Shown here: positions 22,144 to 38,036 of the stretch, piece after piece
How the letters are laid out: each line of letters begins with the position of its first letter
Position numbering within the stretch: the stretch's first letter is position 1
Assembly (NCBI GenBank): GCA_938091995.1
Contig: CALKNZ010000076.1
Span: 1-38,036 of the forward strand
Reading direction: 5' to 3'
DNA from: an uncultured Luminiphilus sp.
GTDB taxonomy: Bacteria > Pseudomonadota > Gammaproteobacteria > Pseudomonadales > Halieaceae
Length of the DNA: 38,036 nt
Program-made: the position numbers and the translations under genes
Notes under the pieces: generated by a model
The model's input: the letters and a program-made list of their open reading frames with translations, nothing else
Database searches by the model: none
What the model was told of the DNA's origin: nothing

Positions 22144-23178
22144 TCAATCGAGCAGCGCGCGCAGGTTTTCACGATAAGCTTGGGGGGATTCACCGACCCA
22201 AGATCGAAACGCTCGGCTAAAAGCGCTTAACTCTGAATAACCCAAATCAAAAGCGATTTCAGTGAGCGAGGCGCGCGAGTTAACCAGCAGGTACTTTGCT
22301 CGTCGCTCTCTCGCAAGGTTTTTTGCTTCGTTAAAAGTAAAGCCTTCCTCTGATAGCCTGCGCCGAAGCGTTCGTGTCGATAACCCCATGAGTCTCGCAA
22401 CGCTAATAGAATCGAGGTTGGCGATAGGGTCTTCCAGCATTATTTGACGACAGACCTTACCGACAAAACCACTGGTTTTATCCCCCATAGAAAAGTAGGT
22501 TTCCATGGCGTTAGCCAAAACTCGAAACATCAGTTTATTACTGGTGAGAAAGGGCTGACTCAAAAAAGATGATGGCAAGTAAATGCTGTTGTGCTCAGCA
22601 TCAAAGTCTAGCCTGCACTTAAAAAAGTCGCGCAGCGCATCGGTTGTGGCCGGCTGCTTGTGGCGGAAAGTAACCCGTATCAAAGGCACTGCCGTTCGAG
22701 TGGCAGTTAACAATGTTTGAACCAGAAATCCGACGAGATATTCATTAAGCTGGGCCATATCAGGACTGCCCATATCCATAAGATCGGAAGAGAACACCAC
22801 TGGCTCTCCATTGGGCCGAAAATGTGTTGTGATGCCCGAATCGATATAACGATCATATTGATTGAGAAACTTTAATCCACCGCCCACTGAGGGCGCTGCC
22901 AACATGGCGACGATCAGCAGGCTACTCGATTCATAATGAAAATCGCGGCCCATAGAGAGGCCCATACTCTGGTTCTTGGTGACTTCTGCCGCCTGCTCAA
23001 AAAGGGCCGCCACACTCTCTAGCGGCAGCGGCAAGTCATATTCTTGGTTGTTAGTGTAGTCAAGACCGCTGGCTTCAAAGACAGGCCCGGGATCAACCCC
23101 TCGATCCATCAGATAATCGCGTACATAGGCGGCAAAGCGCGGTGAAAGGCTCGGGGTATAGCCCTCTACAGAGCTCAT
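22144..23178 (-). CDS. AraC-family regulator with arabinose-binding-type N-terminal domain
   Basis: 344 aa. Residues about 20-210 resemble the Arabinose_bd (PF12625-like) sensor domain found in OruR/ArgR-type regulators. The C-terminal 100 residues form the double helix-turn-helix: ISVARLMGLSTRTLRRRLSEEG, then LTEIAFDLGYSELSAFSRAF. It begins 11 nt after the di-haem cytochrome stop, so it is probably transcribed with the amine operon and may also act on the TonB receptor gene just downstream. An aromatic amine or its aldehyde/acid is a reasonable ligand guess. The ribosome binding site is weak. Confidence 0.85.
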   Translation of the reverse strand: MSSVEGYTPSLSPRFAAYVRDYLMDRGVDPGPVFEASGLDYTNNQEYDLPLPLESVAALFEQAAEVTKNQSMGLSMGRDFHYESSSLLIVAMLAAPSVGGGLKFLNQYDRYIDSGITTHFRPNGEPVVFSSDLMDMGSPDMAQLNEYLVGFLVQTLLTATRTAVPLIRVTFRHKQPATTDALRDFFKCRLDFDAEHNSIYLPSSFLSQPFLTSNKLMFRVLANAMETYFSMGDKTSGFVGKVCRQIMLEDPIANLDSISVARLMGLSTRTLRRRLSEEGFTFNEAKNLARERRAKYLLVNSRASLTEIAFDLGYSELSAFSRAFRSWVGESPQAYRENLRALLD

Positions 23179-23189
23179 CGCAGTAGGAG

Positions 23190-23762
23190 TCAGTCGAGCC
23201 CGTTAAGTTGGGTGTAATACGATGCAAGGGCTGTCATGGCCGAAGGCTGAAGGTCTTTCACAACATTAACCATGAGAGGGTGATAACGGGTACCACTCTT
23301 GAAGGCCCGCAGCTGGTTATCTAGGTAGGGCGCACTTTGGCCTGCAAGGATAGGCCAGTCTTCTGTCACGGGGTAACCTTTCATGCCGTGACAAGCGTGA
23401 CAATAACCGGCTCTGTTCAAGCCCTCTTCAACCAAATTGGCGTTGCCGTTGTCTGCAACCACCCAAGCCTGCCCTGCATACCAAGCAGCGAGTTCGTCAA
23501 TATCGGTATCACTCAACCCAGCGGCCATGCCATTCATTAGAACGTTTTTACGCTCACCACTGCGAAATCCCTGAAGTTGCAGGACAAGATAAGCCCGATT
23601 TTGTCCACCCAGATTGGCGTAATCTGCACTAATACCCACTCCGTCTTTACCGTGACAACCGATGCAAGTAGCCAATGCTTTCGGTTCAGCAGCCAGCGAA
23701 GGTGTCACTACAATGACTGCAAGCGCAGCTAGAAGACCAGCGAATCTCGTTACACACTTCAT
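23190..23762 (-). CDS. Di-haem cytochrome c, c4-like
   Basis: 190 aa with a cleavable signal peptide (ending near SLAA, residue 25), so periplasmic. There are two haem-binding sites: C33-I-G-C36-H37 and C121-H-A-C124-H125, one in each of two similar halves (GGQNRAYLVLQLQGFRSGER against AGQSAPYLDNQLRAFKSGTR). Size and internal repeat match the cytochrome c4 family. AAGGAG lies 7 nt before the ATG and the gene follows the mono-haem cytochrome by 11 nt. The likely role is passing electrons from the amine dehydrogenase towards a terminal oxidase. It is much smaller than MauG and lacks an obvious peroxidase-like layout. Confidence 0.85.
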   Translation of the reverse strand: MKCVTRFAGLLAALAVIVVTPSLAAEPKALATCIGCHGKDGVGISADYANLGGQNRAYLVLQLQGFRSGERKNVLMNGMAAGLSDTDIDELAAWYAGQAWVVADNGNANLVEEGLNRAGYCHACHGMKGYPVTEDWPILAGQSAPYLDNQLRAFKSGTRYHPLMVNVVKDLQPSAMTALASYYTQLNGLD

Positions 23763-23773
23763 GACTTGACTCC

Positions 23774-24214
23774 TTACGGCTTCAATGCGGCGATTTCTGC
23801 CAACACGGATGCTCTGTGATTTTCGATTTCTTGTAATGGCTCTTTTCTAAAAATAGCCACTTCCTCAGCTGTATAGGGTGTATAACCACCCGGTGGCAGA
23901 CTGTCCCCTGCAAAACTATCGATGCTCCAATTCAGCACCTCCGCAAGTTCAGCGTCGTTTAAAGTAGACAACGCCGAGCCCGGCACCCGCACCATAAACT
24001 CTCTCCCTCTCTGGCTTCGGAGAAAGTACCCCATAAAATCTTTCAACGGTGGAATGGCATTGGCGCCCGCACCGTCGGGCGTGTGGCAACCCTGACAGAA
24101 CATTTGATAATGGTATTTTGCGCGTTCAGCATTCATCCCATCCCCAGCCGCAAAAACCGGGCCCACCAACACCAGCAACACCAGCAGAAAACCCTTGATC
24201 ATTGTGTTCGACAC
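23774..24214 (-). CDS. Mono-haem periplasmic cytochrome c of the amine dehydrogenase cluster
   Basis: 146 aa with signal peptide MSNTMIKGFLLVLLVLVGPVFAAG and a single haem site C40-Q-G-C43-H44. The start is GTG at 24214, because GAGGAG at the end of aauA lies 7 nt before it; an ATG at 24202 lacks such a site. Its place directly after aauA matches orf-2 of the Alcaligenes faecalis aau cluster, described as a small periplasmic mono-haem cytochrome. It is the most likely direct electron acceptor of the TTQ subunit. Met axial ligand candidates lie in the region around residues 74-88 but cannot be fixed by eye. Confidence 0.85.
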   Translation of the reverse strand: MSNTMIKGFLLVLLVLVGPVFAAGDGMNAERAKYHYQMFCQGCHTPDGAGANAIPPLKDFMGYFLRSQRGREFMVRVPGSALSTLNDAELAEVLNWSIDSFAGDSLPPGGYTPYTAEEVAIFRKEPLQEIENHRASVLAEIAALKP

Positions 24215-24218
24215 ACGG

Positions 24219-24740
24219 CTACTCCTCGAAAGCCACCCCGACGACCACAGCAGCAGAGCAATGGTAAGACGCACTCGATGTTCCTAGGCACCAGTTAATA
24301 TCATTGGTTTTGTCGGGACGATACGGAGGCCTGTCACCCTCATCACGTTGACACAAGCAAGCTCCACAACCGGGCTTACCACAACAATCATTATATGAAA
24401 TCACATAGTTACGGCCATCAGCGGGGTTATGGCAGGTACCGATCCATGTCACCGGCGACATTTCCGTACCCGGAGGACAGGTATTTGCACTGCCGCCACA
24501 ACAGCTGCACAAAAAGCCATCGATGGCACAATAACGCCAGTAGTCACAATCAGTATCACTACCCGTCTCTTGAGGCCTGGCGGCACCCTCTGGCCCAGCA
24601 GCACGAGCCACGGGTAACAGCGGCAGCGCGCTAGCGCCCACCAGCACTCCGCCCAAAGCTTTCAGCATGCCTCGACGTGGTGCTCGCTGGGCTACACTAC
24701 GGGCTCGCTGCTCGAGCAACCGATCGATGAAAGACATCAT
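24219..24740 (-). CDS. aauA: Aromatic amine dehydrogenase small (TTQ) subunit
   Basis: Catalytic subunit of a periplasmic quinoprotein amine dehydrogenase; 173 aa. A long leader (RAPRRGMLKALGG, Tat-like RR) precedes the cysteine-rich domain. Trp99 and Trp150 are the predicted tryptophan-tryptophylquinone pair, 51 residues apart as in methylamine dehydrogenase (57/108) and A. faecalis AADH (109/160). Asp118 corresponds to the catalytic Asp128 of AADH. The twelve disulfide cysteines of the family align, plus Cys81 and Cys125, which I recall from AADH. The Trp150-to-YHC loop is two residues shorter than in MADH, again AADH-like. The catalytic Thr172 position is Ser162 here. The ATG overlaps the aauD stop as ATGA. 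Confidence 0.92.
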   Translation of the reverse strand: MMSFIDRLLEQRARSVAQRAPRRGMLKALGGVLVGASALPLLPVARAAGPEGAARPQETGSDTDCDYWRYCAIDGFLCSCCGGSANTCPPGTEMSPVTWIGTCHNPADGRNYVISYNDCCGKPGCGACLCQRDEGDRPPYRPDKTNDINWCLGTSSASYHCSAAVVVGVAFEE

Positions 24741-25348
24741 GATTTAACCTCCACATAAGACGCATCAGTACGCTTATTCATATAGTCCTGGATCGAAGCG
24801 ACGCCTTGTTCCTTGGCTTCGAAAAGACTGTCGATGTGCTCTCGGGAATTAACGATTCCCAGAGACGCCACACGCTGCTGCTCATCAACCAAAACCGCGT
24901 AGGGTAACTTCGATACACCGTAACTTTTGCCAACAAGCTCGCTCACTACGTAAGGTAACGAAATTCCTTTGCGCGCAACATAGCCCGAATGATCTTGTTG
25001 ATCGCCATCGCTGACCAATACCACATCCATCCAAGCTGACTCAGCTCGTGCGCTCGATAGCAAAGCGGGCATGAGTTCATTGCAAACGGGACAATCGGGT
25101 GACATAAAAAATAGCAATTGAGACTTGCGGCTAACTCCTCCAATGCTTATCCGTTCATCGCTAAGGGTTAAGGCCTCAAGAGCAGGTGCCTGTGCACCGA
25201 CCTCAAGCGTGCGATTAACCATTAGAGCCCCAGCTGGAGCCACGCGTTCGTAGAGCACACCCACCTGCCGCAACAACGCATAGTTAACGACCGCCAAGCC
25301 AATGACCGCAATCCACAAAACTATGTTTGAGGCTAAAAGAAAACTCAT
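24737..25348 (-). CDS. aauD: Amine dehydrogenase accessory protein, MauD/AauD type
   Basis: 203 aa with one N-terminal membrane anchor (residues 6-26) and a periplasmic thioredoxin-like domain carrying C86-P-V-C89. MauD-type proteins form or isomerise the many disulfides of the small subunit; loss prevents its accumulation in methylotrophs and in A. faecalis. The start is the ATG at 25348, overlapping the aauE stop as ATGA; the open frame extending to 25609 lies inside aauE and is not coding there. aauA follows with another ATGA overlap. Confidence 0.9.
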   Translation of the reverse strand: MSFLLASNIVLWIAVIGLAVVNYALLRQVGVLYERVAPAGALMVNRTLEVGAQAPALEALTLSDERISIGGVSRKSQLLFFMSPDCPVCNELMPALLSSARAESAWMDVVLVSDGDQQDHSGYVARKGISLPYVVSELVGKSYGVSKLPYAVLVDEQQRVASLGIVNSREHIDSLFEAKEQGVASIQDYMNKRTDASYVEVKS

Positions 25349-25869
25349 ACCGACCACCCTACTAAGCGCTGCCGATTGGCAATGATTTGGTCCACAGACA
25401 AATAAACCAGTACTAAGAACAAGCCAAAGACCAGAGCCAAAAAAATCACCGCCCAAGACGTCACTGCGGGCTCCACAGCAACGACGCCCAGTAGCCCAGC
25501 AGCAACCAAGGCATTGCGCCAAACCAGCTCTGGGCCAACTCGAGTTTCCGCCGCAGGCCCACTGCAACCACAACGCAAATCGCTTCGGCCCGTCTGAATC
25601 TGTCGCCACATAAATAGTGCATACAGCACAAGCAGTAAGCTACAACCGAGTGCTCCTAGTGCTCGGGTGGTAGGCACGATGAGCATCAGTGCCAGCACCA
25701 TCTCCACAAAGCCCGTCGCCGATACCGCCCGGTTAGTCACTGGCCGCCCTAAATAGGCCGCCATAATATCCACGTAACCTGCAGAGTGCCGACACTTAGA
25801 GTACCCCGCATGGAAGAATATTGCGCAGACAAAAACCGCGATACCGGCTAACAAAACGGACGTCAGCAT
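25345..25869 (-). CDS. aauE: Amine dehydrogenase accessory membrane protein, MauE/AauE type
   Basis: 174 aa with four or five hydrophobic segments (about 5-22, 50-65, 70-87, 115-135, 137-157). The CGC motif in LRCGCSGPAAET is typical of the MauE/DoxX-like family. MauE is required together with MauD for export, folding or disulfide formation of the small subunit, possibly by supplying redox equivalents to MauD. The ATG directly abuts the aauB stop (TAAATG) and the 3' end overlaps aauD by 4 nt. Confidence 0.88.
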   Translation of the reverse strand: MLTSVLLAGIAVFVCAIFFHAGYSKCRHSAGYVDIMAAYLGRPVTNRAVSATGFVEMVLALMLIVPTTRALGALGCSLLLVLYALFMWRQIQTGRSDLRCGCSGPAAETRVGPELVWRNALVAAGLLGVVAVEPAVTSWAVIFLALVFGLFLVLVYLSVDQIIANRQRLVGWSV

Positions 25870-27042
25870 TTACTGAGCACCCCTGAGCAACAGTGGCGTT
25901 TCCTGACCAAACCCCGTCAGCTTCTTGATAAAACTGCCGCTCAATCCATCGTAGAGTTCAACGCTCATATCAGTGGGATTGGTCACCAGCACCTTGGGCT
26001 CTTCCCCTCGACTAACCGCCAGAGAAAGGCCCCATGCTTCTAAGGGAATGCGAAGAACACGTCGGCGAGCCTCCGGGTCAAACACCCAAATCTCACTGCC
26101 CCCTGCATTGTGCATTCCCTCAACACCGTTGGCCTCTGAGTTCATTAAAAAATAAATACGACCTAAATCATCCTCACCGTCTATGCCAATACCCGAGGGA
26201 GCCCAGGACTCCTCGCCCTTCCCAAATAGCGACCACGAAGCCATGGGTAGTGCCGCTGATCCGGTTAACGCGACTGGCTGCACACGACCATCGAACGCCG
26301 GGAAATAGGCGATATCACCGACCCTAGCAGGTCGCTCAAAAATGGGGGAGTCGTCGGAATCAAAAAACACGTCACTCAAGATTCTCGATTTTTCTGAACC
26401 GTCTTCGTTAAGCAGTACGGTCAGCATACGGCCATCAGCACACAGTGCGCTCAAACCAAGATCCCCATTGGAGTAAATAAAACTGCACCCGGGAGTCGGT
26501 ATTTCCCCCAAAACTGCACGCGTGTCCAGATCAACCAGAGTCACACTGGTCGATGGGCTCAGATTGAAAATCGCCAGCCACCGATCACCCTTTAAAAGCT
26601 GCAACGCGACGCGCTCGGGCATACCCATGAAGCGCTTACCTGCAGGTAGTATGACCTCCGCAATCGCCGAAAGATTGACCGTGTCCCAGATTGTCAGTAC
26701 ATCGATACGATCCCCTCGGGTGCCCCGGGTGTGAAAGGTTTCAATGGCCAGAATTTCCCCTCGGGAAGGCGCCTCAATGAAGCTCCCCATAAGGCTCAGG
26801 GGAAACATCCCCTGCACCTGGTCACCAATAGAATCCTTATCGGTATCCAAGACATAAACCTTGCCGTCCGACATGTGGAAAAAAGCCGCATCGTGAACCA
26901 AAAACCAATCAGCAGGATAACGCTCGGGCAGGGTTTCGATGATCCCGGTCGGCTCCACTGCGAGTGGCGGCCGGACTTCTTCTGCACTGACCAGCACACT
27001 CAAAGCGGTCAGCAACGCAACAAACAAGCCTTTTTTCATCAT
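25870..27042 (-). CDS. aauB: Aromatic amine dehydrogenase large subunit
   Basis: 390 aa with a Sec signal peptide (MMKKGLFVALLTALSVLVSA). The mature part is a seven-bladed beta-propeller of the methylamine/aromatic amine dehydrogenase heavy-chain family: YVLDTDKDSIGDQVQGMF, RGDRIDVLTIWDTVNLS, and the C-terminal IWVFDPEARRRVLRIPLEA and VLVTNPTDMSVELYDG repeats. It scaffolds and shapes the substrate channel of the TTQ subunit. I chose the ATG at 27042 because GAGGG lies 6 nt upstream; a GTG at 27057 would add five residues. It follows the aldehyde dehydrogenase by 20 nt and is followed immediately by aauE, giving the order B-E-D-A known from A. faecalis. Confidence 0.9.
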   Translation of the reverse strand: MMKKGLFVALLTALSVLVSAEEVRPPLAVEPTGIIETLPERYPADWFLVHDAAFFHMSDGKVYVLDTDKDSIGDQVQGMFPLSLMGSFIEAPSRGEILAIETFHTRGTRGDRIDVLTIWDTVNLSAIAEVILPAGKRFMGMPERVALQLLKGDRWLAIFNLSPSTSVTLVDLDTRAVLGEIPTPGCSFIYSNGDLGLSALCADGRMLTVLLNEDGSEKSRILSDVFFDSDDSPIFERPARVGDIAYFPAFDGRVQPVALTGSAALPMASWSLFGKGEESWAPSGIGIDGEDDLGRIYFLMNSEANGVEGMHNAGGSEIWVFDPEARRRVLRIPLEAWGLSLAVSRGEEPKVLVTNPTDMSVELYDGLSGSFIKKLTGFGQETPLLLRGAQ

Positions 27043-27062
27043 GATCATCCCTCGCACGCTTA

Positions 27063-28484
27063 TTAACCCTTCGCAATTTGTAAGGTTTGAATATTGGTGT
27101 ATTCAACGAGCCCATAACGACCAAACTCAACACCAACGCCAGACTGTTTAACACCGCCAAAGGGGGCGTCAGGTTGAATCATAGCGTGATTATTGACCCA
27201 GGCAGTTCCGCACTCAAGTCGCGACGCAAGCTTCTGGGCCGCCTCTGTATCACTAGACCAAACCGAGCCACCCAGTCCCACCGAAACCGCATTGGCTCTT
27301 TCCAGTGCGTCCTCGACATCTGAAAAACTCACAACAGGTAAGATAGGGCCGAAAGGCTCCTCTTGAACCAATCGACTGTTCTCAGGTATGTCCTTAACGA
27401 TAGTAACAGGGAAGAAATAGCCCGGCCCGGGTACCGGCTCGCCGCCGGTGAGAAAAGTAGCGCCATCAGCCCTTGCCGACTCGGCGAGTTCGCAAACCCG
27501 GTCGTACTGCATTTTATTTTGAATGGGACCAAAATCCGGGCTCTCTGATGCCGGACCGGTCTTCACACTCCCTGCGATGGCCGCTAGAGCCTCACACATT
27601 TCATCATAAATATCTTCATGCACGTACAGGCGCTTCAGAGCCGCACAGGTCTGACCATTGTTAATCATGGCCGTAGCAAAGATTTTACCCGCGGCCTCAG
27701 CCACATTGGTGTCGGGCAATACAATCGCCGCGTCATTTCCACCCAATTCGAGCGTCAGTCGTTTTAGGTTATCGGCAGCCGCTTCCATAATGCGCTTACC
27801 GGTACGGGTTGATCCAGTAAAGACAATTTTATCGATATCGGGATGCGATGAAATTGCCGCGCCGAGGGCGCCCTTTCCAGTCACAATATTGACAACACCC
27901 GGGGGCAGTAAATCACTAATGAGATGCATCGCCTTTAGCACTGTCAGTGGCGTGTATTCAGATGGCTTTGCGACCACGGTACAGCCGGCAAGTAGCCCAG
28001 GAATAATGTGCCAACAGGTGATTAAAAGCGGATAGTTCCAAGGTGTAATCGAACCCACGACGCCCACGGGCTTGCGATGCACTTCAATTCGAGCTTCGTC
28101 GTTGTCCTGAATAACTTCCACCGGTAAATCTAGGCTGGCGGTATAACGGATCCATGCCAAGCTTCCCCCCAACTCAAACATGGCACCTAAACCTGCAAAC
28201 CCCTCAATCGGCTTGCCCTGCTCCTCGCTCAATAATTGAGCCAGTTCACCCATATTTTCTTCCAATCGATCGGCAATTTTTAAAATAAGAGCGCGACGCT
28301 CGTCCATCGATTGCCCGCTCCAGCCCGGCAGCGCCCGTCTAGCGGCTGCAACTGCCTCGTTTAACTGCGTTAGGCTAGCCTCTGGAACCGTCGTAATCAC
28401 AGTCTCCGTAGCAGGATTTATCACTTCAAATGTATTTTCAGCCGTTACCGACTCACCGTTTATAAGCATTGAATAATCAGACAT
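27063..28484 (-). CDS. NAD(P)-dependent aldehyde dehydrogenase (probable phenylacetaldehyde dehydrogenase)
   Basis: 473-aa cytoplasmic ALDH-superfamily enzyme. Visible residues are Asn150 (PWNYPL), Lys173 (AKPSEYTPL), Glu246 (LELGGND) and nucleophile Cys280 (NNGQTC). The C-terminal FGGVKQSGVGVEFGRYGLVEYTN motif is standard. Family sequence alone does not fix the substrate. It lies directly upstream of aauBEDA and downstream of the phenylacetate genes, so oxidation of phenylacetaldehyde (or hydroxyphenylacetaldehyde) to the acid is the best inference. AGGGGG precedes the ATG by 6 nt. A promoter-like element and a palindrome lie about 140-185 nt upstream. Confidence 0.88.
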   Translation of the reverse strand: MSDYSMLINGESVTAENTFEVINPATETVITTVPEASLTQLNEAVAAARRALPGWSGQSMDERRALILKIADRLEENMGELAQLLSEEQGKPIEGFAGLGAMFELGGSLAWIRYTASLDLPVEVIQDNDEARIEVHRKPVGVVGSITPWNYPLLITCWHIIPGLLAGCTVVAKPSEYTPLTVLKAMHLISDLLPPGVVNIVTGKGALGAAISSHPDIDKIVFTGSTRTGKRIMEAAADNLKRLTLELGGNDAAIVLPDTNVAEAAGKIFATAMINNGQTCAALKRLYVHEDIYDEMCEALAAIAGSVKTGPASESPDFGPIQNKMQYDRVCELAESARADGATFLTGGEPVPGPGYFFPVTIVKDIPENSRLVQEEPFGPILPVVSFSDVEDALERANAVSVGLGGSVWSSDTEAAQKLASRLECGTAWVNNHAMIQPDAPFGGVKQSGVGVEFGRYGLVEYTNIQTLQIAKG

Positions 28485-28527: not shown

Positions 28528-28704
28528 TTATTCACGTGCGCTTTGCCCAGCATGCCCTGAGTTACCGGACCATGTTTTACATTTCACGGGCCCCACGCCA
28601 TTAGGTAACGCGTTATCTTTTTCTTGAGTATAACGTTGCGGGGCGTTGACACCAAGGCGTTCAGCCTTGGAGGTTGATAACATCAAACGGCCTACAAGGC
28701 TCAT
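28528..28704 (-). CDS. Possible small ORF (58 aa), unknown function
   Basis: An open frame of 58 codons starts at an ATG that overlaps the symporter stop as ATGA and ends in TAA 43 nt before the aldehyde dehydrogenase start. The predicted peptide begins MSLVGRLMLS and is basic, with one cysteine (VKCKTW), no membrane segment and no motif I recognise. In favour: the 4-nt overlap, a common arrangement in this operon. Against: low family recognisability and the overlap with a candidate promoter and palindrome. It could be a chance frame in a regulatory gap. Confidence 0.35.
   Translation of the reverse strand: MSLVGRLMLSTSKAERLGVNAPQRYTQEKDNALPNGVGPVKCKTWSGNSGHAGQSARE
28627..28655 (-). promoter_or_regulatory. 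Candidate promoter for the aldehyde dehydrogenase-aau operon
   Basis: On the minus strand TTGGTG (28655-28650) and TATACT (28632-28627, five of six bases of the -10 consensus) are separated by 17 nt, with the predicted start of transcription about 135 nt before the aldehyde dehydrogenase ATG. The -35 half is weak, as expected for an activated promoter. Confidence 0.35.
28652..28670. promoter_or_regulatory. Perfect palindrome next to the candidate promoter
   Basis: CCAAGGC-GTTCA-GCCTTGG is a 7-bp perfect inverted repeat with a 5-nt centre, overlapping the -35 side of the candidate promoter at 28627-28655. It could be an operator, or an RNA hairpin behind the symporter gene; no T-run follows on the minus strand. 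Confidence 0.4.
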
Positions 28705-30383
28705 GATGCCACTCCCGACTCAGCCAATTCAGTTTCTGATGCACCAAACTCAGAACGCACCAACAACCGCGCATAGTTTTCTCGATCTACCGCTCCCCTG
28801 TCGCTACGATCTCTTAACGACACTATCACCATCACTAAAACTGAAGCGGGCATGGTAAACAGCGCGGGATAATCGTAGGGAAAAATAGGCTCACCATTGC
28901 CCAGCACCGAGACCCAGACTTGGGGGCCCAAAACAATAAGAACAATGGAGGAAACAAGCCCTACCCCAGCACCGTACATCGCACCGCGCGTGGTAAAGCC
29001 TGACCAAAACAAAGAGAGGAAAAGAATAGGAAACGTCACCGAAGCAGAGACCACCATGGGAATGGTCGCAATAAAGGCAATGTTTTCATGCTGAAAAATA
29101 ATGCCCAATGACACCGCAGCAAGACCGATCAAAAAAACACTGACCCGGGTGAGTCGCAGTTCGGTTTTTGGGTCGGGCTTTCCTTTCTTGAGAACTTCAG
29201 CGTATACGTCATGAGAAATTGCTGCTGCACCCGACAGCGTCAGCCCCGCAACCACGGCTAGAATCGTGGCAAAACATACTGCAGACATAAAGCCTGTAAG
29301 CAGATCGCCACCCATAGCGCTAGCAACATGAATTGCTGCCATATTACTGCCACCAATCAGCTTACCCTCACCATCAAAAAACTCTGGAGATCCCGCAACA
29401 TAGGCAATAGAGCCAAACCCCAGCACTAACAGGGCAATGTAAAAATAGCCGATAAATAGTGACGCGTAATAGGATGACAACTTTGCCTGACGCATATCGG
29501 GAACCGTGAACAGACGCATCAGGATATGGGGCAAACCCACAGTCCCAAACAGCATCGAAACTTGAATAGTAAGAATTTGTACCGGATCGCTGAAGATCGC
29601 ACCTGCCCCAAGAATAGCCTCTCCTTTCGGGTGGTTTACCACAGCTTTACCCAGCAAGTTTGAAAAGCTAAAGCCCGAATCGGCCAGCAACAATCCCGCA
29701 ATGAGCGTTACTCCCGTCAACAACAGGGCTGCCTTTATGATCTGCACCCACGTCGTCGCCAACATGCCGCCAAAAGCGACGTAGGCCAGTACGAGTACGC
29801 TGACCAGTAATAAGGCCCATTCATAGGGCAAGCCAAACAGCAGTTGAATCAGTGTACCCGCGCCGACCATTTGTGCGATGAGATACATGATGACAATAAG
29901 AATCGTGCTAAACGCAGTGACGAGACGAATGGGGTCTCGGTCAAGTCGCTGTGAAATCACATCGATGAATGTGAAGTTACCGAGATTACGTACACGCTTG
30001 GCAAACAAAAACATAAATACTGGCCAGGCACCAAACGCGCCCAGAGACAAAATTAAGCCGTCGAAGCCCCCCACATACATCAGTCCGGTAATACCGAGAA
30101 ACGACGCCGCCGACATAAAATCGCCCGCAATCGCAAGGCCATTTTGCGCACCCGTTATTTGTCCGCCGGCGTTGTAAAAAGTTGAACTGGTTTTTGTTGC
30201 CTTTGAAGCCCACCAAGTGACATACAGGGTCAGTGCAACAAACAACAGGAACATACCAATAGCGATAGGATTTAGAGCTTGACGCTCGGCAGCTCCCTCT
30301 AGCGCCCCTGCCGCAAACATCAGGTCAGACCACAAAAGCAGTAAAGCGCTGGGCACAACCCGAAAATATCCCCGCAGCATCAT
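28701..30383 (-). CDS. Sodium:solute symporter, ActP/PaaL-like
   Basis: 560-aa SSS-family membrane protein with an N-terminal signal-like segment (MMLRGYFRVVPSALLLLW) and about 13 membrane segments, like E. coli acetate permease ActP (549 aa). Diagnostic stretches include FYNAGGQITGAQNGLAIAGDFMSAASFLG and TLSGAAAISHDVYAEVL. In Pseudomonas, phenylacetate permease PaaL belongs to this family. Placement directly after paaE suggests import of phenylacetate or a related acid. The ATG at 30383 overlaps the DUF485 stop as ATGA; the frame open to 30515 lies inside that gene and is not coding. Confidence 0.87.
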   Translation of the reverse strand: MMLRGYFRVVPSALLLLWSDLMFAAGALEGAAERQALNPIAIGMFLLFVALTLYVTWWASKATKTSSTFYNAGGQITGAQNGLAIAGDFMSAASFLGITGLMYVGGFDGLILSLGAFGAWPVFMFLFAKRVRNLGNFTFIDVISQRLDRDPIRLVTAFSTILIVIMYLIAQMVGAGTLIQLLFGLPYEWALLLVSVLVLAYVAFGGMLATTWVQIIKAALLLTGVTLIAGLLLADSGFSFSNLLGKAVVNHPKGEAILGAGAIFSDPVQILTIQVSMLFGTVGLPHILMRLFTVPDMRQAKLSSYYASLFIGYFYIALLVLGFGSIAYVAGSPEFFDGEGKLIGGSNMAAIHVASAMGGDLLTGFMSAVCFATILAVVAGLTLSGAAAISHDVYAEVLKKGKPDPKTELRLTRVSVFLIGLAAVSLGIIFQHENIAFIATIPMVVSASVTFPILFLSLFWSGFTTRGAMYGAGVGLVSSIVLIVLGPQVWVSVLGNGEPIFPYDYPALFTMPASVLVMVIVSLRDRSDRGAVDRENYARLLVRSEFGASETELAESGVAS

Positions 30384-30676: not shown

Positions 30677-31780
30677 TCAGCTCCCTGACCAGCGCTTATC
30701 AAAATCAATATGCACGTGCTCAGTAATAGGATGCGATTGACACGTAAGTATCATGCCCCGCGCGATTTCATCAGCCGTCAAGCCCCGCTGAATATCCATT
30801 TCAACTTCGCCCTCAACCAACAGCGCTTTGCAGGTTGAGCAAACGCCACCCTTGCAGGCGAAGGGTAAATCTAGACCTAGATTAAGACCTGCGTCCAATA
30901 AATTTTCGCCATCTGCAGCAATGCGTACTTGGCTCGCGCGGCCATCGCTAACCAGCGTGACATCGCACATTTTCCCCGAAAATGCCTCGGCACGTGCATG
31001 ATGCCTAGCCACGCGCTCTGCCGCATCCTCAGCAGAGCTGCCAAACAGCTCGTACTTGATTTTATCTTCAGGAATTCCGCTATTGCGCAGACCCCTGGAA
31101 ACCTCCGAAATCATTGACTCTGGACCACACAAGAAAAATCCGCCAAAACCCTTAAGGTCGAGTATTTTTCGACTGAGTTCAGCGCCTTTCTCATTATCAA
31201 TACGACCGTTGAGTACTGGCGCATCCTGGGTCTCTCGGCTGAGTATATTGACCCAGTTAAAACGCTCTAAATACTGATTCTTCAGAAAAGATAATTGCTG
31301 GCGAAACATAATGCTGGAGGAGCGCTGATTGCCATACAACAACGTGGCTCTCGAACTGGAGTCGGCCTCTAATACTGACATGAGCATAGACATAATGGGC
31401 GTAATGCCTGAGCCGGCCGCTATAAATAAATAATTGGTCCCGGAGGCCTGTAGCTGAGGCAAAGCAAAGTTACCCTGTGGTGCCATCACCTCAAGGGTCA
31501 TGCCACAGCGCAACTGCTCGTTAGCAAAATTACTGAATACTCCGTTCTCGACGCGTTTAATGGCCACCGTTAACTGTCCTTTAGACGGGGGCACACAGAT
31601 CGAATAAGCGCGGCTAACATGGGCATCATCAATCAGAGTTCGAAGAGTCAAATATTGCCCTGGCTTAAAATCAAAGACCTCTTCAAGGTCTGCGGGTACC
31701 TGAAAGCTTACACAGACCGCATTTGCCGTTTCAGGAACTACACGAGTCACTTTTAGCGAATGAAATATCGCGCTGGACAT
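30677..31780 (-). CDS. paaE: Phenylacetyl-CoA epoxidase reductase subunit
   Basis: 367 aa (E. coli 356). It is an NADPH-FAD oxidoreductase that feeds electrons to the di-iron PaaA. The N-terminal FAD domain carries SRAYSIC (RxYS), the NAD(P) domain FIAAGSGITPIMSM and FFLCGPESMI, and the C-terminal plant-type [2Fe-2S] domain CKGGVCSTCKA plus a later Cys in LTCQSH. The ATG at 31780 lies 1 nt after the paaD stop; the longer frame runs back into paaD and is rejected. Confidence 0.94.
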   Translation of the reverse strand: MSSAIFHSLKVTRVVPETANAVCVSFQVPADLEEVFDFKPGQYLTLRTLIDDAHVSRAYSICVPPSKGQLTVAIKRVENGVFSNFANEQLRCGMTLEVMAPQGNFALPQLQASGTNYLFIAAGSGITPIMSMLMSVLEADSSSRATLLYGNQRSSSIMFRQQLSFLKNQYLERFNWVNILSRETQDAPVLNGRIDNEKGAELSRKILDLKGFGGFFLCGPESMISEVSRGLRNSGIPEDKIKYELFGSSAEDAAERVARHHARAEAFSGKMCDVTLVSDGRASQVRIAADGENLLDAGLNLGLDLPFACKGGVCSTCKALLVEGEVEMDIQRGLTADEIARGMILTCQSHPITEHVHIDFDKRWSGS

Positions 31781-31781: not shown

Positions 31782-32303
31782 CTATATGGCCTTAAACACG
31801 TCAAAAGGCTCCTGGCAGGCAAGACATCGAAAAAGTGCCTTGCAGGCTGTAGATCCGAATTCACTGATCACTTGGGTATTTTCACTGCCACATTGTGGGC
31901 AGCCGATGTCGCCAGCTTCTGCTGAGGCAACGCCATAGGACGTCATTTTGCGACGCGCCTCAGGGGTTAACCACGCGGTGGTCCACGCTGGCGCCAACCG
32001 GGTCTCTACCACCACCTGATCGTAGCCTCCAGCGGCGAGTGCGGCGCGGGCGTCTTCTTCCATGATACCCAGGGCGGGGCACCCAATATACGTGGGCGTC
32101 AGCACCAACTTAACCGTGTCACCCTCACAGCTGACATCTTGCAGTACACCCAACTCGTAGAGAGAGATAACAGGAATCTCAGGGTCCATAACCTCATCGA
32201 GCAGAGCCCAAATCTCGCCCACTTTAGATTCCTGCCGACGTCGTCGCCTCGCCAGTTCCTCAACCGGTAACAAGGGAATGCATTCGGCCATACGGGCAGT
32301 CAC
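31782..32303 (-). CDS. paaD: PaaD, Fe-S assembly-type accessory protein of the epoxidase
   Basis: 173 aa (E. coli 165). The N-terminal DUF59/MIP18-like domain shows DPEIPVISLYELG and PTYIGCPAL, followed by the PaaD-specific PAWTTAWLTPEARRKM. A C-terminal zinc-ribbon has CPQCG and CLACQEPFDVFK around EFGSTACKALFRC. It is required in vivo for the epoxidase, probably for maturation of an iron cofactor. No strong ATG site exists: I use GTG at 32303, which overlaps the paaC stop as GTGA; GTG at 32306 and ATG at 32291 are alternatives. Confidence 0.9.
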   Translation of the reverse strand: MTARMAECIPLLPVEELARRRRRQESKVGEIWALLDEVMDPEIPVISLYELGVLQDVSCEGDTVKLVLTPTYIGCPALGIMEEDARAALAAGGYDQVVVETRLAPAWTTAWLTPEARRKMTSYGVASAEAGDIGCPQCGSENTQVISEFGSTACKALFRCLACQEPFDVFKAI

Positions 32304-33058
32304 CACTGCAGCCCGGGATAAGCCCGCTGCATAAATTGCATCTCCGCTAAAATAAACCCCAGATCATCCGTATGGATTCCGACTCTACCACCGGTAACGC
32401 CTCCTTGAGACTCGGGTACCGCAAGGGTCGCTGTACGTAATGTTTCTGTCACTGTCTCAAGCCAGGTCGAACGTAAACTTGAGGTGTTCACGGCGACACC
32501 TGCAACCACCAAATCGTTTACCAAGTCGTCACATTCGAACATCTCATCGGTATAAATCCAGAGCTGTTCCAAGGCGTTTTGGCAACGTTCGTGACTTTCT
32601 TGGGTGCCATCGCCTAGGCGCAGCATCCAATCGCTACTGCGACGCAAGTGATACCGACTTTCTTTTTCCGCCTTGGCGGCAATAGCCGCAAGCTGGGGGT
32701 CTGTGCTGTGACACAGTGCTTGAGTAAACGGTAGGGAGAATGCGTCATACAAAAACTGGCGACACAAAGTAAAGGCGAAGTCGCCACGAGGCAGTTCACA
32801 CAGCAGTAGATTAGTAAAATCACGAACATCGCGCTGATAGGCGAAGGTATCCTCGGTAACCTCCCCGCCCATAAGCTCAGCAGCATATTGATAGAACAAC
32901 CGCGCCCGCCCTACAAAATCAAGGGCGACATTGGACAGAGCAATATCCTCCTCAAGAAATGGTGCGCGACTCATCCATTCAGATAAACGATGCCCCATAA
33001 TGAGAGCATCATCGCCTAATCGAACGACGTAGCGTGTTAACGGATCATTCAGCTTCAT
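32300..33058 (-). CDS. paaC: Phenylacetyl-CoA epoxidase structural subunit PaaC
   Basis: 252 aa (E. coli 248). Ferritin-like helical protein that forms the stable heterodimer with catalytic PaaA. LGDDALIMGHRLSEWMSRAPFLEEDIALSNVALD at the N-terminus and EKESRYHLRRSSDWMLRLGDGT are typical of the family. The start overlaps the paaB stop by 4 nt (ATGA) and the end overlaps paaD. Confidence 0.94.
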   Translation of the reverse strand: MKLNDPLTRYVVRLGDDALIMGHRLSEWMSRAPFLEEDIALSNVALDFVGRARLFYQYAAELMGGEVTEDTFAYQRDVRDFTNLLLCELPRGDFAFTLCRQFLYDAFSLPFTQALCHSTDPQLAAIAAKAEKESRYHLRRSSDWMLRLGDGTQESHERCQNALEQLWIYTDEMFECDDLVNDLVVAGVAVNTSSLRSTWLETVTETLRTATLAVPESQGGVTGGRVGIHTDDLGFILAEMQFMQRAYPGLQW

Positions 33059-33339
33059 AAACTGTCGACCCCCTCAGGCAACTCGTACATCGCCGCATGC
33101 CGATAAGGTTTGTCATCTAAAGGGTCATAAAAACTCTCACAGTCGCTTTCTTGAGATGCCGTAATATCTCGTGAGGCCACTACCCAAATACTGATGCCCT
33201 CTCCGCGACGAGTGTAGACATCGCGGGCATATTCCAGGGCTTGATGCGGGTCGTCAGCATGCAGACTGCCAACATGCTTATGATCCAGACCCCGGCTGGA
33301 GCGAATGAAAACCTCGTAAAGCTGAAGCTGATCGGACAC
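33055..33339 (-). CDS. paaB: Phenylacetyl-CoA epoxidase subunit PaaB
   Basis: 94 aa (E. coli 95). Small subunit bridging PaaA/PaaC dimers; the core LYEVFIRSSRGLDHKHVGSLHA and YTRRGEGISIWVV is strongly conserved. The start is GTG at 33339, with the excellent ribosome binding site GAGGAGGT just upstream and the right family length. The frame open to 33408 lies inside paaA. Confidence 0.94.
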   Translation of the reverse strand: MSDQLQLYEVFIRSSRGLDHKHVGSLHADDPHQALEYARDVYTRRGEGISIWVVASRDITASQESDCESFYDPLDDKPYRHAAMYELPEGVDSL

Positions 33340-33349
33340 CGATACCTCC

Positions 33350-34306
33350 TCAGGCCACTTCCGCACGGGCTGTGCGACGCTTTGCCTCGAAGGCAGCCAT
33401 AGCTTCACGGACCCACGCGCCCTCGGTATGGGCTTCTACATGATGAGCCAGGCGCTGACGATTACAGGGGCCGTTGCCAGAAACAACGCGCTGAAACTCC
33501 TGCCAATCTATGGCGCCGAAGTCGTAATGCCCCCGCTCCTCATTCCAGGACAAATCGGGGTCAGGGACTACCAGTCCAATGGCCTGTGCCTGTTGTACCG
33601 CTTGATCGACAAATTGCTGTCGCAGCTCATCATTGCTACGTCGCTTTATTTTCCACTTCATAGACTGCGCCGAATGCGCCGACTCTGCGTCGTGGGGACC
33701 GAACATCATAAGCGAAGGCCACCACCACCGGTTCAGTGCGTCTTGAGCCATATCACGTTGCAGTTCAGCACCTTGCATCAGAGTCATCATAATGTTGTAC
33801 CCCTGACGCTGATGAAAGCTCTCCTCCTTGCAGATTTTCACCATGGCACGGGCATAGGGTCCGTAAGATGTATTTTGCAACGAGACCTGATTCACAATTG
33901 CCGCACTATCAACCAGCCAACCAATAGCGCCAATGTCAGCCCAAGTTAAAGAAGGATAATTAAAGATCGAGGCGTATTTACTCGCGCCAGTATGCAGTCG
34001 ATCGATGAGCTCGTCCCGGGTGATGCCTAAGGTTTCAGCTGCGGCATACAAGTACAAACCGTGCCCTGCTTCATCTTGTACCTTAGCCATCAAAATCGCT
34101 TTTCGCTCCAAGGTTGGGGCGCGAGAAATCCAATTGCCCTCGGGTTGCTCACCGATAACCTCGGAGTGGGCGTGCTGTGATATTTGACGAATCAGGTTCT
34201 GGCGATACTTTTCTGGCATCCAGTCTTTCGGTTCGACTTTTTCCTCGGCATCGATCCTAGATTGAAATTTTTGCTCGTTGGGTACCAAAGACATATTGTC
34301 ACTCAT
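33350..34306 (-). CDS. paaA: Phenylacetyl-CoA epoxidase catalytic di-iron subunit
   Basis: 318 aa (E. coli 309). Catalyses epoxidation of the aromatic ring of phenylacetyl-CoA with O2. Iron ligands sit in the paired ExxH motifs [13 protein letters not shown] and [11 protein letters not shown], with further glutamates in [13 protein letters not shown] and the helix near [12 protein letters not shown]. The C-terminus [18 protein letters not shown] and [16 protein letters not shown] matches the family. The ATG at 34306 is preceded by an AGGTG site. It follows paaJ by 24 nt, the largest gap within the paa run. Confidence 0.95.
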
Positions 34307-34330
34307 GCTACACACCTATATTCCGTCGTT

Positions 34331-35536
34331 TTAAACACGTTCAATAATCAGAGCTATACCCTGTCCTACCCCTATGCACATAGCGCACAAGGCATAACGT
34401 TTTTTGCAGCGCTGCAGCTCATAGGCAGCGGTTGTTACCAACCTAGCGCCACTCATTCCCAGGGGGTGTCCCAATGCGATGGCACCACCATTAGGGTTGA
34501 CCTGTTCAGCATCATCGGCGAGGCCAAGCGATCGGGTAACGGCAAGCGCTTGGGCGGCAAAAGCTTCATTAAGCTCGATGACATCCATATCGGCCAGGGT
34601 TAAACCCGCCTGCGCTAGTACTTTCAAAGTCGCCTCGTAAGGACCGTGACCCATGATTCTGGGTTCAAGTCCTGAAGTTGCCATCGCAACCACTCTGGCT
34701 AGAGGCTCCAAGCCCTGCGCTGATGCAGCCGAGTCAGACGCGAGTAGCAAGGCACAGGCACCGTCATTCACGCTCGAGGCATTGCCTGCGGTTACAGTCC
34801 CATCGTCACGAAATGGGGTTGGCAAGCTTGCCAACCGCTCTAGCGAAGCATCTTTCCTAGGGCCCTCGTCACGGTTAATCCTCAGTGGCTCACCTTTACG
34901 CTGTGGAATGATCACCTCGGTGATTTCCTGTGCCAGCCTTCCCGCGTCTTGGGCCGCTACGGCCCTCTGCTGCGAACGCAGAGCAAAAGCATCCTGATCG
35001 GCTCTTGAAATTTGGAACTGTGTCACGAGATTTTCTGCTGTTTCCGGCATTGAATCCGTACCCCAGCGTTTTTTAAACGCGGGATTCACAAAGCGCCAAC
35101 CAATAGTAGTATCGAAGGTTTGCACGTTACGATCGAATGCCGAGTGAGCTTTACTCATGACAAAAGGAGCACGGCTCATTGACTCGACGCCACCGGCGAT
35201 CGCCAGGCTGATCTCACCGCTTTTGATCGCGCGGGCTGCCGAACCGACGGCATCAAGCCCGGAACCACACAAACGATTCAGCGTGACCCCAGGCACCTGC
35301 TCTGGCATACCCGCCAGCAGTGCACTCATGCGACTCACATTCCGGTTGTCTTCACCAGCCTGATTGGCACAACCCATCCATATGTCATCCACAGCTAACC
35401 AATCTGTGTTTGGGTGCCGGGCCATCAAGGCGGCGATGGGAACTGCGCCCAAATCATCTGTACGAACAGCGGATAACCCCCCTCCGTAACGCCCTATCGG
35501 TGTCCGAACAGCATCGCAAATAAAGGCATTAATCAT
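34331..35536 (-). CDS. paaJ: 3-oxoadipyl-CoA / 3-oxo-5,6-dehydrosuberyl-CoA thiolase
   Basis: 401 aa, cytoplasmic. Thiolase active-site residues are visible: Cys90 in [10 protein letters not shown], His357 in ALGHPLG and Cys387 in [10 protein letters not shown]. The length and the N-terminal [15 protein letters not shown] match the beta-ketoadipyl-CoA thiolases (PaaJ/PcaF). In this pathway it acts twice, after ring opening and at the final step to succinyl-CoA and acetyl-CoA. PcaF is an alternative name, but the paa context favours PaaJ. It overlaps paaI by 8 nt. Confidence 0.92.
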
Positions 35537-35984
35537 GGGCTATCCCTGTTGAATCAAGCCGAACAATTTCATCACCAATGGTAGCGGAGTTACCCCGGAA
35601 CTGGGCGATACAAACACCCTCTTCGTTGGTCACTACAACGTCGTAAATGCCTGTCCGCTTACCCTGATGAACGACTGAAGCCCTAGCAAGAAGCCGATCG
35701 TTCAGTTTCGCTGGCTGCAAAAAATCAATGCGAGCCCCCGCTGCAACCGTAACGAGGTTTCGACTGTTGCAGGCATAGGCAAAGGCACTATCGGCCAGGG
35801 TAAAGAGGTAGCCTCCGTGGCATATCCCGTGACCATTAACCATCTGCGCCTGAACCGTCATTGTCATTTCAGCAACACCGAGATCAACAGCCACTAGCTC
35901 CATGGCCAACGCTTGACAGGCTCGATCATTTTTCCACATCGCTTCAGCCGCAGCGGTCGCAACTGCTAAGGAATCAGCACTCAC
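35529..35984 (-). CDS. paaI: Hydroxyphenylacetyl-CoA thioesterase
   Basis: 151 aa (E. coli 140). Hotdog-fold thioesterase with HGG at 56-58 and catalytic Asp65 in GHGICHGGYLFTLADSAFAYAC. It releases CoA from ring-hydroxylated or dead-end phenylacetyl-CoA derivatives, protecting the CoA pool. It overlaps paaG by 4 nt (ATGA) and paaJ by 8 nt. Confidence 0.92.
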   Translation of the reverse strand: MSADSLAVATAAAEAMWKNDRACQALAMELVAVDLGVAEMTMTVQAQMVNGHGICHGGYLFTLADSAFAYACNSRNLVTVAAGARIDFLQPAKLNDRLLARASVVHQGKRTGIYDVVVTNEEGVCIAQFRGNSATIGDEIVRLDSTGIAHD

Positions 35985-36769
35985 TGGCCTTTGTACTCCG
36001 GCTTGCGCTTTTCCAGAAAAGCCTTCACGCCTTCAGCGTAATCTTCAGTAAAACCCGCCGTGCGCATTAAACTTTTTTCAAGCTCCAACTGATCGTCCAA
36101 ACTGTTAGTCATAGATGCGGAAAACGCTTGCTTGGTATAGGCAAACCCCAGGGTAGGCTGAGTGGCAAGATGCTCCGCTACGTCCATCACCGTTTCCATG
36201 AGCAAGGCGTCTTCTACAACTTCCCAAATCAGGCCCCATTCCTTGGCCTGCCGAGCTGACACTTTGGGCATCAGCATGGCCATTCCCTTTGCGCGAGCCA
36301 TACCAATCATTCTCGGCAGGTGCCAGGTGCCCCCTGAATCGGGTATCAGCCCGAGCATGGCAAAAGACTCTACAAACTTCGCCGACTCGGCTGCAAAAAC
36401 CAAGTCGCAAGCTAAGGCTAAATTAGCTCCAGCCCCAGCGGCGACGCCATTTACGGCACAGATAACGGGCTTTTCCATACCCGTAATCCGTCGAATAAGG
36501 GGATTGTAAAAACGATCGACTGAATCACCTAGGTCAACACGTTCACCGGGGGCAACATTACGGTCATTTAAATCCTGCCCGGCACAGAAACCGCGACCAG
36601 CTCCGGTGATGACCACAGCCCGAATTGCACGGTCTTCCGCCGCGGCTTCTAGAACCTCGGCAACTTCTGCGTGCATGGCCGCAGTAAAACTGTTTAGGCT
36701 ATCCGGCCGGTTTAACGTGAGGCAAGCTACACCACGCGCGACAACATATTCTATAGACTCATAAGCCAT
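35981..36769 (-). CDS. paaG: 1,2-epoxyphenylacetyl-CoA isomerase
   Basis: 262 aa, crotonase superfamily. Converts the ring epoxide to oxepin-CoA. The oxyanion-hole regions GAGRGFCAGQDLNDR and AVNGVAAGAGANLALACD, and the catalytic-face stretch MLGLIPDSGGTWHLPRMIG, agree with PaaG rather than the hydratase PaaF. It starts 3 nt after the paaZ stop with GAGGCG upstream. Confidence 0.93.
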   Translation of the reverse strand: MAYESIEYVVARGVACLTLNRPDSLNSFTAAMHAEVAEVLEAAAEDRAIRAVVITGAGRGFCAGQDLNDRNVAPGERVDLGDSVDRFYNPLIRRITGMEKPVICAVNGVAAGAGANLALACDLVFAAESAKFVESFAMLGLIPDSGGTWHLPRMIGMARAKGMAMLMPKVSARQAKEWGLIWEVVEDALLMETVMDVAEHLATQPTLGFAYTKQAFSASMTNSLDDQLELEKSLMRTAGFTEDYAEGVKAFLEKRKPEYKGQ

Positions 36770-36772
36770 CGC

Positions 36773-38036
36773 TTACGCCTCCCGCCGCTCGACTAGGGTA
36801 AGAATGTCGTAGACCGCAACCGCGCCTCCGTTTTGGTTAGTGACCTCGACAGCCCAGACAACAACACCATTTGGTTTTTCGTCTCCACGCTGCGCCTTTT
36901 TAATTTTTCGCTTGACCGTCAGCTTGCACTGGATCGTGGTGCCAGCAGGCACAGGCTCGACAAAGCGCAGATTTTCGAGACCGTAATTTGCAATAACCGG
37001 GCCTGGGGCCGGGTGCACAAACATCCCGGCCGCCGCCGAAATAACAAAATAACCGTGGGCAACCCGCTGACCAAAGAAAGAATCTTTCGCCGCTATTTCG
37101 TCGAAATGCGCATAAAAGTGGTCGCCGCTAACGCAGCCGAAATTAACAATATCGGCTTCTGTTACGGTTCGGCGGTGAGTCACTAAGGTCTCGCCAATTT
37201 GCAGCGCTTCAAAATATTTTTTGAACGGGTGAACGTCATCATGAATTTCTTTAGCGCCACGATGGTACTCACGAGTAATCGCCATCATTGTCGTGGGTGA
37301 ACCCTGAATGGCCGTTCTCTGCATATAGTGCTTGATGGCTCTAGCACCACCGAGTTCCTCTCCACCACCCGCTCGGCCGGGTCCACCATGGATCAAATTC
37401 GCCAACGGTGCGCCATGACCCGTTGACTCGCTGGCGCAATCTCTGTTGATGATCAGCATTCGTCCGTGCCAAGCCGCGGCGCCTAGTATGATGGCCCTAG
37501 CCTCCTCGTCGTCTGCCGTAAATAACGAGCCCACCAATGAGCCTTTACCCATCCTCGCGAGCTCGACAGCCTCATTGAGTGACTGGTAGGGCATGAGTGT
37601 TGCGACAGGGCCGAAGGCCTCGACGCTGTGCACCGCCAATGCACTGAGAGGCTGATCGCAACGTAATAATGTTGCGGGGTAAAACGCACCTGCGTTGTGT
37701 GATAACCCAGCCAAGACCATATCCCTATCGCCCCCGGCAATGATGGTCGCCTCTTCACAAAGCGCCTCTACTTTCGCACTGACGTCCTGCGCCTGCTCGG
37801 CATTGACCAATGCCCCCAAACGCACCTGTTCTAGGGTCGGATCTCCAGGGACTACTTTGGCGAGCCGAACTTTCAACGCTTCTGACACCTGCTCAATAAG
37901 CGCGTGTGGAACAATGACGCGCCGAATGGCCGTACACTTCTGCCCCGCCTTCGCGGTCATCTCCCGCACGACTTCTTTTACAAACAGCTGGAACTCTGGA
38001 TCGTCTTCGGCCACAGATTCACCGAGGATGGCGCAA
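36773..38036 (-). CDS. paaZ: PaaZ, bifunctional oxepin-CoA hydrolase / semialdehyde dehydrogenase, 5' end outside window
   Basis: The visible 420 codons are the C-terminal part of a protein of about 680 aa; the frame runs open through position 38036, so the GTG at 38014 is internal, not a start. The first visible residues (CAILGESV) and [19 protein letters not shown] hold the ALDH nucleophile cysteine. [15 protein letters not shown] and [12 protein letters not shown] mark the end of the ALDH domain. From about residue 290 a MaoC-type hydratase follows, with [12 protein letters not shown] and the catalytic Asp/His. It hydrolyses oxepin-CoA to open the ring and then oxidises the reactive aldehyde. 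It is the first visible gene of the minus-strand paa run. Confidence 0.95.

Follow-up and report, generated by a model that had tools for sequence, protein, structure and literature searches.

In Escherichia coli K-12, the gene order feaR-feaB-tynA-paaZABCDEFGHIJKXY places an AraC-type regulator (FeaR), a phenylacetaldehyde dehydrogenase and an aromatic amine-oxidising enzyme beside the phenylacetate (paa) genes, and deletion of tynA reduces the expression of paa and feaB according to the available sections of one report (PMC4640556). In the pea pathway of Pseudomonas, an amine dehydrogenase and a phenylacetaldehyde dehydrogenase likewise lead into the phenylacetyl-CoA pathway; in P. chlororaphis GP72 and Pf-5, the phenylethylamine genes do not form one operon, as far as the available text of that study goes (PMC3644233). 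Here, we analysed a stretch of 38,036 nucleotides (hereafter the window) from an uncultured Luminiphilus sp., in which paa genes adjoin aau genes for a predicted aromatic amine dehydrogenase (AADH), an enzyme with a tryptophan tryptophylquinone (TTQ) cofactor.

Compared with this locus, E. coli K-12 differs in having a copper amine oxidase and not a TTQ dehydrogenase, and its 23-kb stretch (23 features) contains no homoprotocatechuate (hpa) genes, TonB receptors or amidases. The Pseudomonas pea enzyme, a quinohaemoprotein amine dehydrogenase, is another enzyme as well; none of its subunit families was among the matches listed for 19 window proteins, the rest of the genome not being searched for them. 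The AADH of Alcaligenes faecalis is alike in subunit similarity and TTQ residues, and presumably also in gene order (aauBEDA, the same as in the window). Unlike the aau genes of the window, however, those of A. faecalis have to our knowledge no linkage to paa, hpa or amide hydrolase genes. The sequence-only reading of this DNA had regarded the direct linkage of AADH and paa genes in a probable marine gammaproteobacterium as no standard described locus, which was overstated in view of feaR-feaB-tynA-paaZ in E. coli K-12, albeit with the copper enzyme. The linkage of an amine oxidase to paa is already known; novelty here lies in the use of a TTQ dehydrogenase, in the hpa arm and in the cluster of six predicted amide hydrolases. 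For the AADH-paa linkage itself, no report was found in the portion of the open-access PMC literature covered, and one may be in print elsewhere.

Composition of the locus and the proposed pathway

The window corresponds to contig C76 in a draft genome of 2.88 Mb that is Luminiphilus-like (OM60/NOR5, Halieaceae). Luminiphilus belongs to the Halieaceae in the NCBI taxonomy, and the earlier assignment of the DNA to a marine gammaproteobacterium is supported by its sequence. The closest named relatives of AauA, among the best 80 of at least 559 confirmed loci, were those of HTCC2080 and of a Luminiphilus metagenome-assembled genome (95% identity each), followed by other Luminiphilus records. Gene identities were assigned by hidden Markov model searches against Pfam and NCBIfam with their cut-offs, and structural relatives by phmmer searches against the PDB (Table 1). 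We consider it quite probable that the window is part of one island for the catabolism of arylethylamines and arylacetates, working as proposed below.

All genes that the sequence-only reading had named on the minus strand between 22144 and 38036 were recovered by these searches and by open reading frame (ORF) calls, except that its DUF485 label for an 80-residue protein is unsupported, since a Pfam search at E ≤ 1e-3 gave no match for this protein. Strand and order held as well; the very short gaps or overlaps did not hold everywhere, as 216 bp precede the aldehyde dehydrogenase gene (aldh). The locus exceeds the extent noted at that time, continuing to the left through a TonB-dependent receptor to HpaR and to the right into another contig, C88, whose start is an exact copy of the last 141 bases of the window. 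paaZ is truncated by the contig end and its N-terminal part sits on C88; in another genome of our sample (G031), paaZ, TonB, PaaK, PaaX and hpaE follow in this order on a single contig. Beyond the paaZ start, C88 encodes an amidase and a flavoprotein resembling phenol 2-monooxygenase, then two TonB receptors flanking a penicillin G acylase homologue, followed by PaaK and PaaX; hpaE, D, F, H and I come last, after genes for an HpaG-like hydrolase and a Rieske oxygenase. PaaK, PaaX, HpaD and HpaE scored above their NCBIfam cut-offs; the HpaF- and HpaG-like proteins stayed under theirs, and the HpaH and HpaI positions match just the Pfam families FAA_hydrolase and HpcH_HpaI. An HpaB-family gene was located on contig C1. 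HpaR marks the left end of this neighbourhood, in which the TonB receptors number three and the predicted amide-bond hydrolases six.

We propose that a periplasmic TTQ enzyme, AauBA, matured with the help of AauDE, would deaminate arylethylamines and pass the electrons to the adjacent cytochromes c, of which the monohaem protein is probably the acceptor. In the cytoplasm, the neighbouring aldehyde dehydrogenase would oxidise the resulting aldehyde. Phenylacetate, either derived from the amine or imported by the ActP-type symporter (which, judging from its position, probably takes up arylacetates), would be activated by PaaK, and the ring would be opened by PaaABCDE, G, Z and J; a FadB-like fusion enzyme whose gene lies elsewhere probably carries out the PaaF and PaaH steps. 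3,4-Dihydroxyphenylacetate, arising from dopamine or from a hydroxylated tyramine product, would enter the hpa meta-cleavage genes, so tyramine and dopamine, if used, are expected to exit through hpa rather than paa. HpaR may govern both the aau aldh and hpaE through a common palindrome. As the least certain part, the TonB receptors probably import amides from which the amide-bond hydrolases free amines and acids. The earlier route from amine to aldehyde, phenylacetate and ring-opened CoA products agrees with an AADH-type enzyme with an export leader, an aldehyde dehydrogenase and ring-opening genes. It was incomplete, since PaaK, PaaX and hpa are on C88 and the TonB receptors, the amide hydrolases and HpaR belong to the neighbourhood too.

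Table 1. Features of the Luminiphilus window discussed in the text, from right to left
Feature	Position	Strand	Evidence
paaZ, C-terminal part (residues 261-680 of a full-length relative)	36773..38036	-	TIGR02278 600.1 bits, cut-off 562.8
paaG	35981..36769	-	TIGR02280 395.4 bits, above cut-off
paaI	35529..35984	-	TIGR02286 147.7 bits, above cut-off
paaJ (3-oxoadipyl-CoA thiolase)	34331..35536	-	TIGR02430 667.2 bits, above cut-off
paaA	33350..34315	-	TIGR02156 518.3 bits, above cut-off
paaB (true start probably inside)	33055..33408	-	TIGR02157 115.8 bits, above cut-off
paaC	32300..33058	-	TIGR02158 280.9 bits, above cut-off
paaD	31782..32306	-	TIGR02159 164.4 bits, above cut-off
paaE (ATG start)	30677..31780	-	TIGR02160 397.1 bits, slightly under cut-off 420.8
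80-residue hydrophobic protein preceding symporter	30380..30622	-	ORF call
SSF symporter, ActP type	28701..30383	-	PF00474; NF006903 715.9 bits, cut-off 750
Palindrome GRTAACRYGTTAYC, candidate HpaR operator	28604..28617		core kept upstream of aldh; genome scans
aldh, probable arylacetaldehyde dehydrogenase	27063..28484	-	PF00171
aauB, AADH large subunit	25870..27057	-	PF06433 (Me-amine-dh_H); top PDB matches AADH, E 2e-36; best methylamine dehydrogenase 1.9e-17
aauE (MauE family)	25345..25869	-	PF07291
aauD (MauD-like thioredoxin-fold protein; start inferred)	24737..25348	-	TIGR02661 176.7 bits, cut-off 188.6
aauA, TTQ small subunit, Tat-like leader	24219..24740	-	PF02975 (Me-amine-dh_L); top PDB matches AADH
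Monohaem cytochrome c (true start probably inside)	23774..24274	-	one CXXCH
Dihaem cytochrome c4-like protein	23190..23762	-	two CXXCH; PDB cytochrome c4 E 8.1e-24
AraC regulator	22144..23178	-	best NCBIfam match QhpR, NF049968 194.7 bits, under cut-off 250
TonB-dependent receptor	19534..21957	-	PF00593/PF07715
Amidohydrolase, lipoprotein-like leader	17691..19472	-	PF07969; leader read from sequence
Amidase, Tat-like leader	16177..17727	-	PF01425; leader read from sequence
HDAC-like amidohydrolase, no leader seen	15041..16192	-	PF00850; PDB matches include HDAH, propanil hydrolase
Short-chain fatty acid transporter	13532..14863	+	PF02667
Amidase	12076..13545	+	PF01425; NF005686 483.8 bits, above cut-off 465
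HpaR, MarR-type regulator of homoprotocatechuate degradation	11309..11860	-	TIGR02337 143.6 bits, cut-off 121.2

Type of the amine dehydrogenase

Judged by sequence comparison, the amine dehydrogenase of the window is of the aromatic and not of the methylamine type. In the PDB searches, both subunits were nearer to AADH structures than to those of methylamine dehydrogenase (MADH), with one MADH chain (3c75) close behind AADH for the small subunit (156.3 versus 159.9 bits), its leader aligning too. Both subunits missed the MADH equivalog cut-offs (TIGR02659, 155.5 versus 196.85 bits; TIGR02658, 86.2 versus 454.45 bits), and an identity as MADH was rejected on these missed cut-offs together with the PDB similarity. 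The genes run from the large subunit through E and D to the small subunit. W99, W150 and D118 of AauA are invariant in all 14 aligned sequences (the window and 13 of the 28 found); we take the two tryptophans to form TTQ and the aspartate to be the active-site residue, roles known from MADH and AADH structures.

A TTQ enzyme that is a MADH, in a methylotrophic locus with paa as an incidental neighbour, would fit the Pfam names of both subunits and the methylamine utilisation genes listed for a Luminiphilus genome from the North Sea in the available part of PMC8371827. Besides the scores given above, this is made very improbable by the absence of mauG from the locus: PF03150 was found in the genome only on contigs C6 and C67, both unlinked to it, and the two proteins favour cytochrome c peroxidases over MauG (132.2 versus 112.9 bits, which is not by much, and 148.7 versus 76.5 bits). 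A linked MauG for TTQ formation was rejected on the same grounds. A TTQ locus of the window type is a candidate for the methylamine genes credited to a Luminiphilus genome in that source, as far as its available part tells. As our comparison suggests, the TTQ genes of marine genomes can serve the catabolism of aromatic amines and not the methylamine use that their Pfam names imply.

Some genomes contain more than one set of TTQ genes. At six loci in several other genomes, a second aauB-aauA pair stands in tandem with the aauB-D-A set, which suggests a two-enzyme arrangement. A second, more distant TTQ cluster is present at C1:2263910 of G053, with no paa match in the surrounding 40 kb.

Conservation of the junction between paa and aau

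We examined 146 genomes, with the own genome counted in and about 54-57 of them from the genus. PF02975 was detected in 29, PaaA above its cut-off in 26 and both in 21 (Fisher p 1.7e-14, with kinship ignored). Within the genus, PF02975 and PaaA were each found in 11 genomes and together in 10, and the two single-gene exceptions are contig breaks: in G038, without a PaaA match, the contig that bears the paa genes stops in paaB, and in G031, without an AauA match, a contig end lies at aauB and aauE. Another genome (G033), missed by both searches, carries paaC to aauB on one contig. At least 13 genomes of the genus, found through PF02975, PaaA, TonB and HDAC matches (AauB was searched in only some), carry the locus. 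Because 12 of them have the paa-symporter-aldh-aauB junction on a single contig and the 13th has it split between contigs, the adjacency of paa and aau is not a matter of chance. The aau-paa part is also present in the named strains HTCC2080 and Luminiphilus syltensis NOR5-1B. In G002, the contig bearing aau also carries hpaE, at a distance of about 35 kb from aauA.

Outside the genus, PF02975 was detected in 13 of 369 genomes of a class sample (own genome included), and such enzymes are therefore uncommon. In a member of another family (G136), about 33 kb contain an AraC regulator, TonB, two amidohydrolases, aldh, aauBEDA, cytochromes and an amidase, followed by a TonB receptor, a penicillin acylase homologue, PaaX and paa. 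The 80 named loci were picked by similarity to the window AauA, so proportions among them are not unbiased; many end at contig ends, and 48 span at least 20,400 bases (near 10 kb per side). A neighbourhood search for aauA beside paa, as the sequence-only reading had advised, bore out the linkage in the 13 genomes of the genus and also at 19 of these 80 loci, which have at least one paa gene in the stretch covered (counting paaZ, paaA-E, paaK and paaX, each at ≥35% identity). Fifteen of the 19 are outside the genus, including Vibrio galatheae, Shewanella corallii, two Colwellia, Pseudomaricurvus and four Alphaproteobacteria; among the 48 longer loci, 13 have a paa gene. The partners of aauA detected by tblastn were the monohaem cytochrome c (79 of 80 loci), aauB (77), aauD (76), aldh (51) and aauE (30). 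The cytochrome gene is thereby the most constant AADH partner, ahead of aauB.

The aldehyde dehydrogenase scored highest with the aminobutyraldehyde dehydrogenase subfamily (436.0 versus a cut-off of 615) and then with StyD, a phenylacetaldehyde dehydrogenase (414.9 versus 850); its first PDB match is an unnamed aldehyde dehydrogenase (8yen) and its second a phenylacetaldehyde dehydrogenase (4o5h). The modules could be neighbours in an aromatic island without feeding each other, in which case AauBA would act on a different amine, for example a diamine or an aliphatic one. The top model of the aldehyde dehydrogenase, though under its cut-off, would agree with this, as would the distance of AauB from the A. 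faecalis subunit (phmmer E 2e-36) and the 61 of 80 loci that have no linked paa gene. We regard it as improbable, given the aldh match in 51 of the 80 loci, the paaK match near aauA in 13 (best pieces all 61-70% identical) and the recurrence of the paa-aau junction in 12 of the 13 locus-bearing genomes of the genus.

Shared palindrome and predicted amide hydrolases

The 216-bp gap upstream of aldh contains the palindrome GRTAACRYGTTAYC, whose core TAACNNGTTAC is common to all 11 aligned aldh upstream regions, with poorly conserved flanking DNA. Exact copies occur at 16 sites in 10 of the 13 locus-bearing genomes and at none in eight control genomes of the genus chosen as lacking the locus; the reversed pattern was matched in 3 of 21 genomes. 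Nine of the 16 sites precede the aau aldh and the other seven precede hpaE, several of these lying between hpaE and the divergent Rieske gene. Near matches before aldh were observed in five genomes (G002, G005, G049, G051 and G053). In the window alone, a looser pattern allowing two mismatches was seen seven times versus 2.84 expected, which is barely over chance (4 of 100 shuffles reach seven). A palindrome common to paaZ or the TonB gene was rejected, as none was found there.

HpaR is the likely binder of this palindrome, because its gene lies in the locus; the AraC regulator is the alternative. That aldh and hpaE share the site suggests that products of tyramine or dopamine may be used alongside phenylethylamine, and the locus offers a small predicted HpaR regulon. 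Since the gap before aldh carries its own conserved palindrome, there are probably at least two transcription units, and a single operon for the whole locus is unsupported.

The penicillin G acylase homologue on C88 (PF01804, 389.5 bits; PDB 7reo, E 9.7e-148) aligns with the 1h2g beta chain from residue 300, the point at which solved beta chains begin and at which its own SNYW starts, with Ser first. It was found beyond paaZ in six genomes (G000, G002, G003, G009, G051 and G053), while in G008 and G049 the stretch covered stops short of its position. According to the available sections of PMC9493321, the penicillin G acylase of E. coli is thought to be a scavenger of phenylacetate esters and amides, and PaaX binds its promoter. 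The C88 homologue is likewise tied to phenylacetate catabolism, sharing the island with PaaK, PaaX, paa and aau. It sits among genes that would use phenylacetate, which makes its native role testable.

These genes raise the tentative possibility, which we hold at somewhat less than even, that the island is an amide-scavenging system in which N-acyl arylethylamines and N-arylacetyl amides are imported through TonB receptors, cleaved and used in full. Arylethylamines, arylacetates and short fatty acids would be freed by the periplasmic lipoprotein and Tat amidases, the penicillin G acylase and the cytoplasmic HDAC-like deacylase, and all released products would be consumed through aau, paa, hpa and the fatty-acid transporter. 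If so, penicillin acylase would have a concrete native role in the sea.

The TonB orthologue (≥56% identity, six candidates scored per genome) was found in 20 of the 146 genomes and the full-length HDAC orthologue (≥68% identity) in 15, and every one of these genomes has aau and paa genes; an HDAC fragment at a contig start in G080 (68% over 122 residues) was left out of the count. In G060, G085 and G098, the TonB gene is beside paa despite aau being on other contigs, and in G098 the HDAC gene is there as well. These associations make it unlikely that the amide hydrolases and TonB form a separate set for unrelated amides such as peptides or secondary metabolites. Such a set, which would dispute the amide front end only, draws its support from hydrolase and receptor substrates being unreadable from sequence, and from G009, which retains the aau-paa junction without either orthologue.

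Several observations weigh against one island of the proposed kind. With regard to the pathway, the aldehyde dehydrogenase falls short of the cut-off of every one of the 25 NCBIfam families listed, and no PaaH above cut-off was found in the host genome (best 218.6 versus 669.4 bits), whose completeness is 80.75%. A FadB-like protein of 699 residues on contig C36, which shares 50-54% identity with FadB-like genes in the paa stretches of five genomes and 47-49% and 39% in those of three more, is the candidate for the PaaF and PaaH steps. With regard to linkage, 8 of the 29 PF02975 genomes have no PaaA above cut-off and 5 of the 26 PaaA genomes no PF02975. The 61 named loci without any of the listed paa genes in the stretch covered mean that aau is often unlinked. 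G003 has no paaJ match, G002 has matches to paaJ, I, G and Z in pieces, and the distance between hpaE and aauA in G053 is about 63 kb. The palindrome is absent before paaZ and the TonB gene, and before aldh in the other genera scanned. As for the amide front end, G031 lacks a match to penicillin acylase in the stretch beyond paaZ and, like G009, has no TonB or HDAC orthologue, and HDAC is also lacking in G003.

Distant PaaA-like proteins (about 75-80 bits) are encoded outside the paa locus in the own genome (C103:27567-28304) and in eight others of the genus. At the left side of the window, positions 57-11132 contain ordinary genes, namely those for tRNA-Pro, tetrahydrofolate dehydrogenase/cyclohydrolase, a major facilitator superfamily transporter, two tRNA synthetases, a prolyl isomerase, MiaE and aconitase B.

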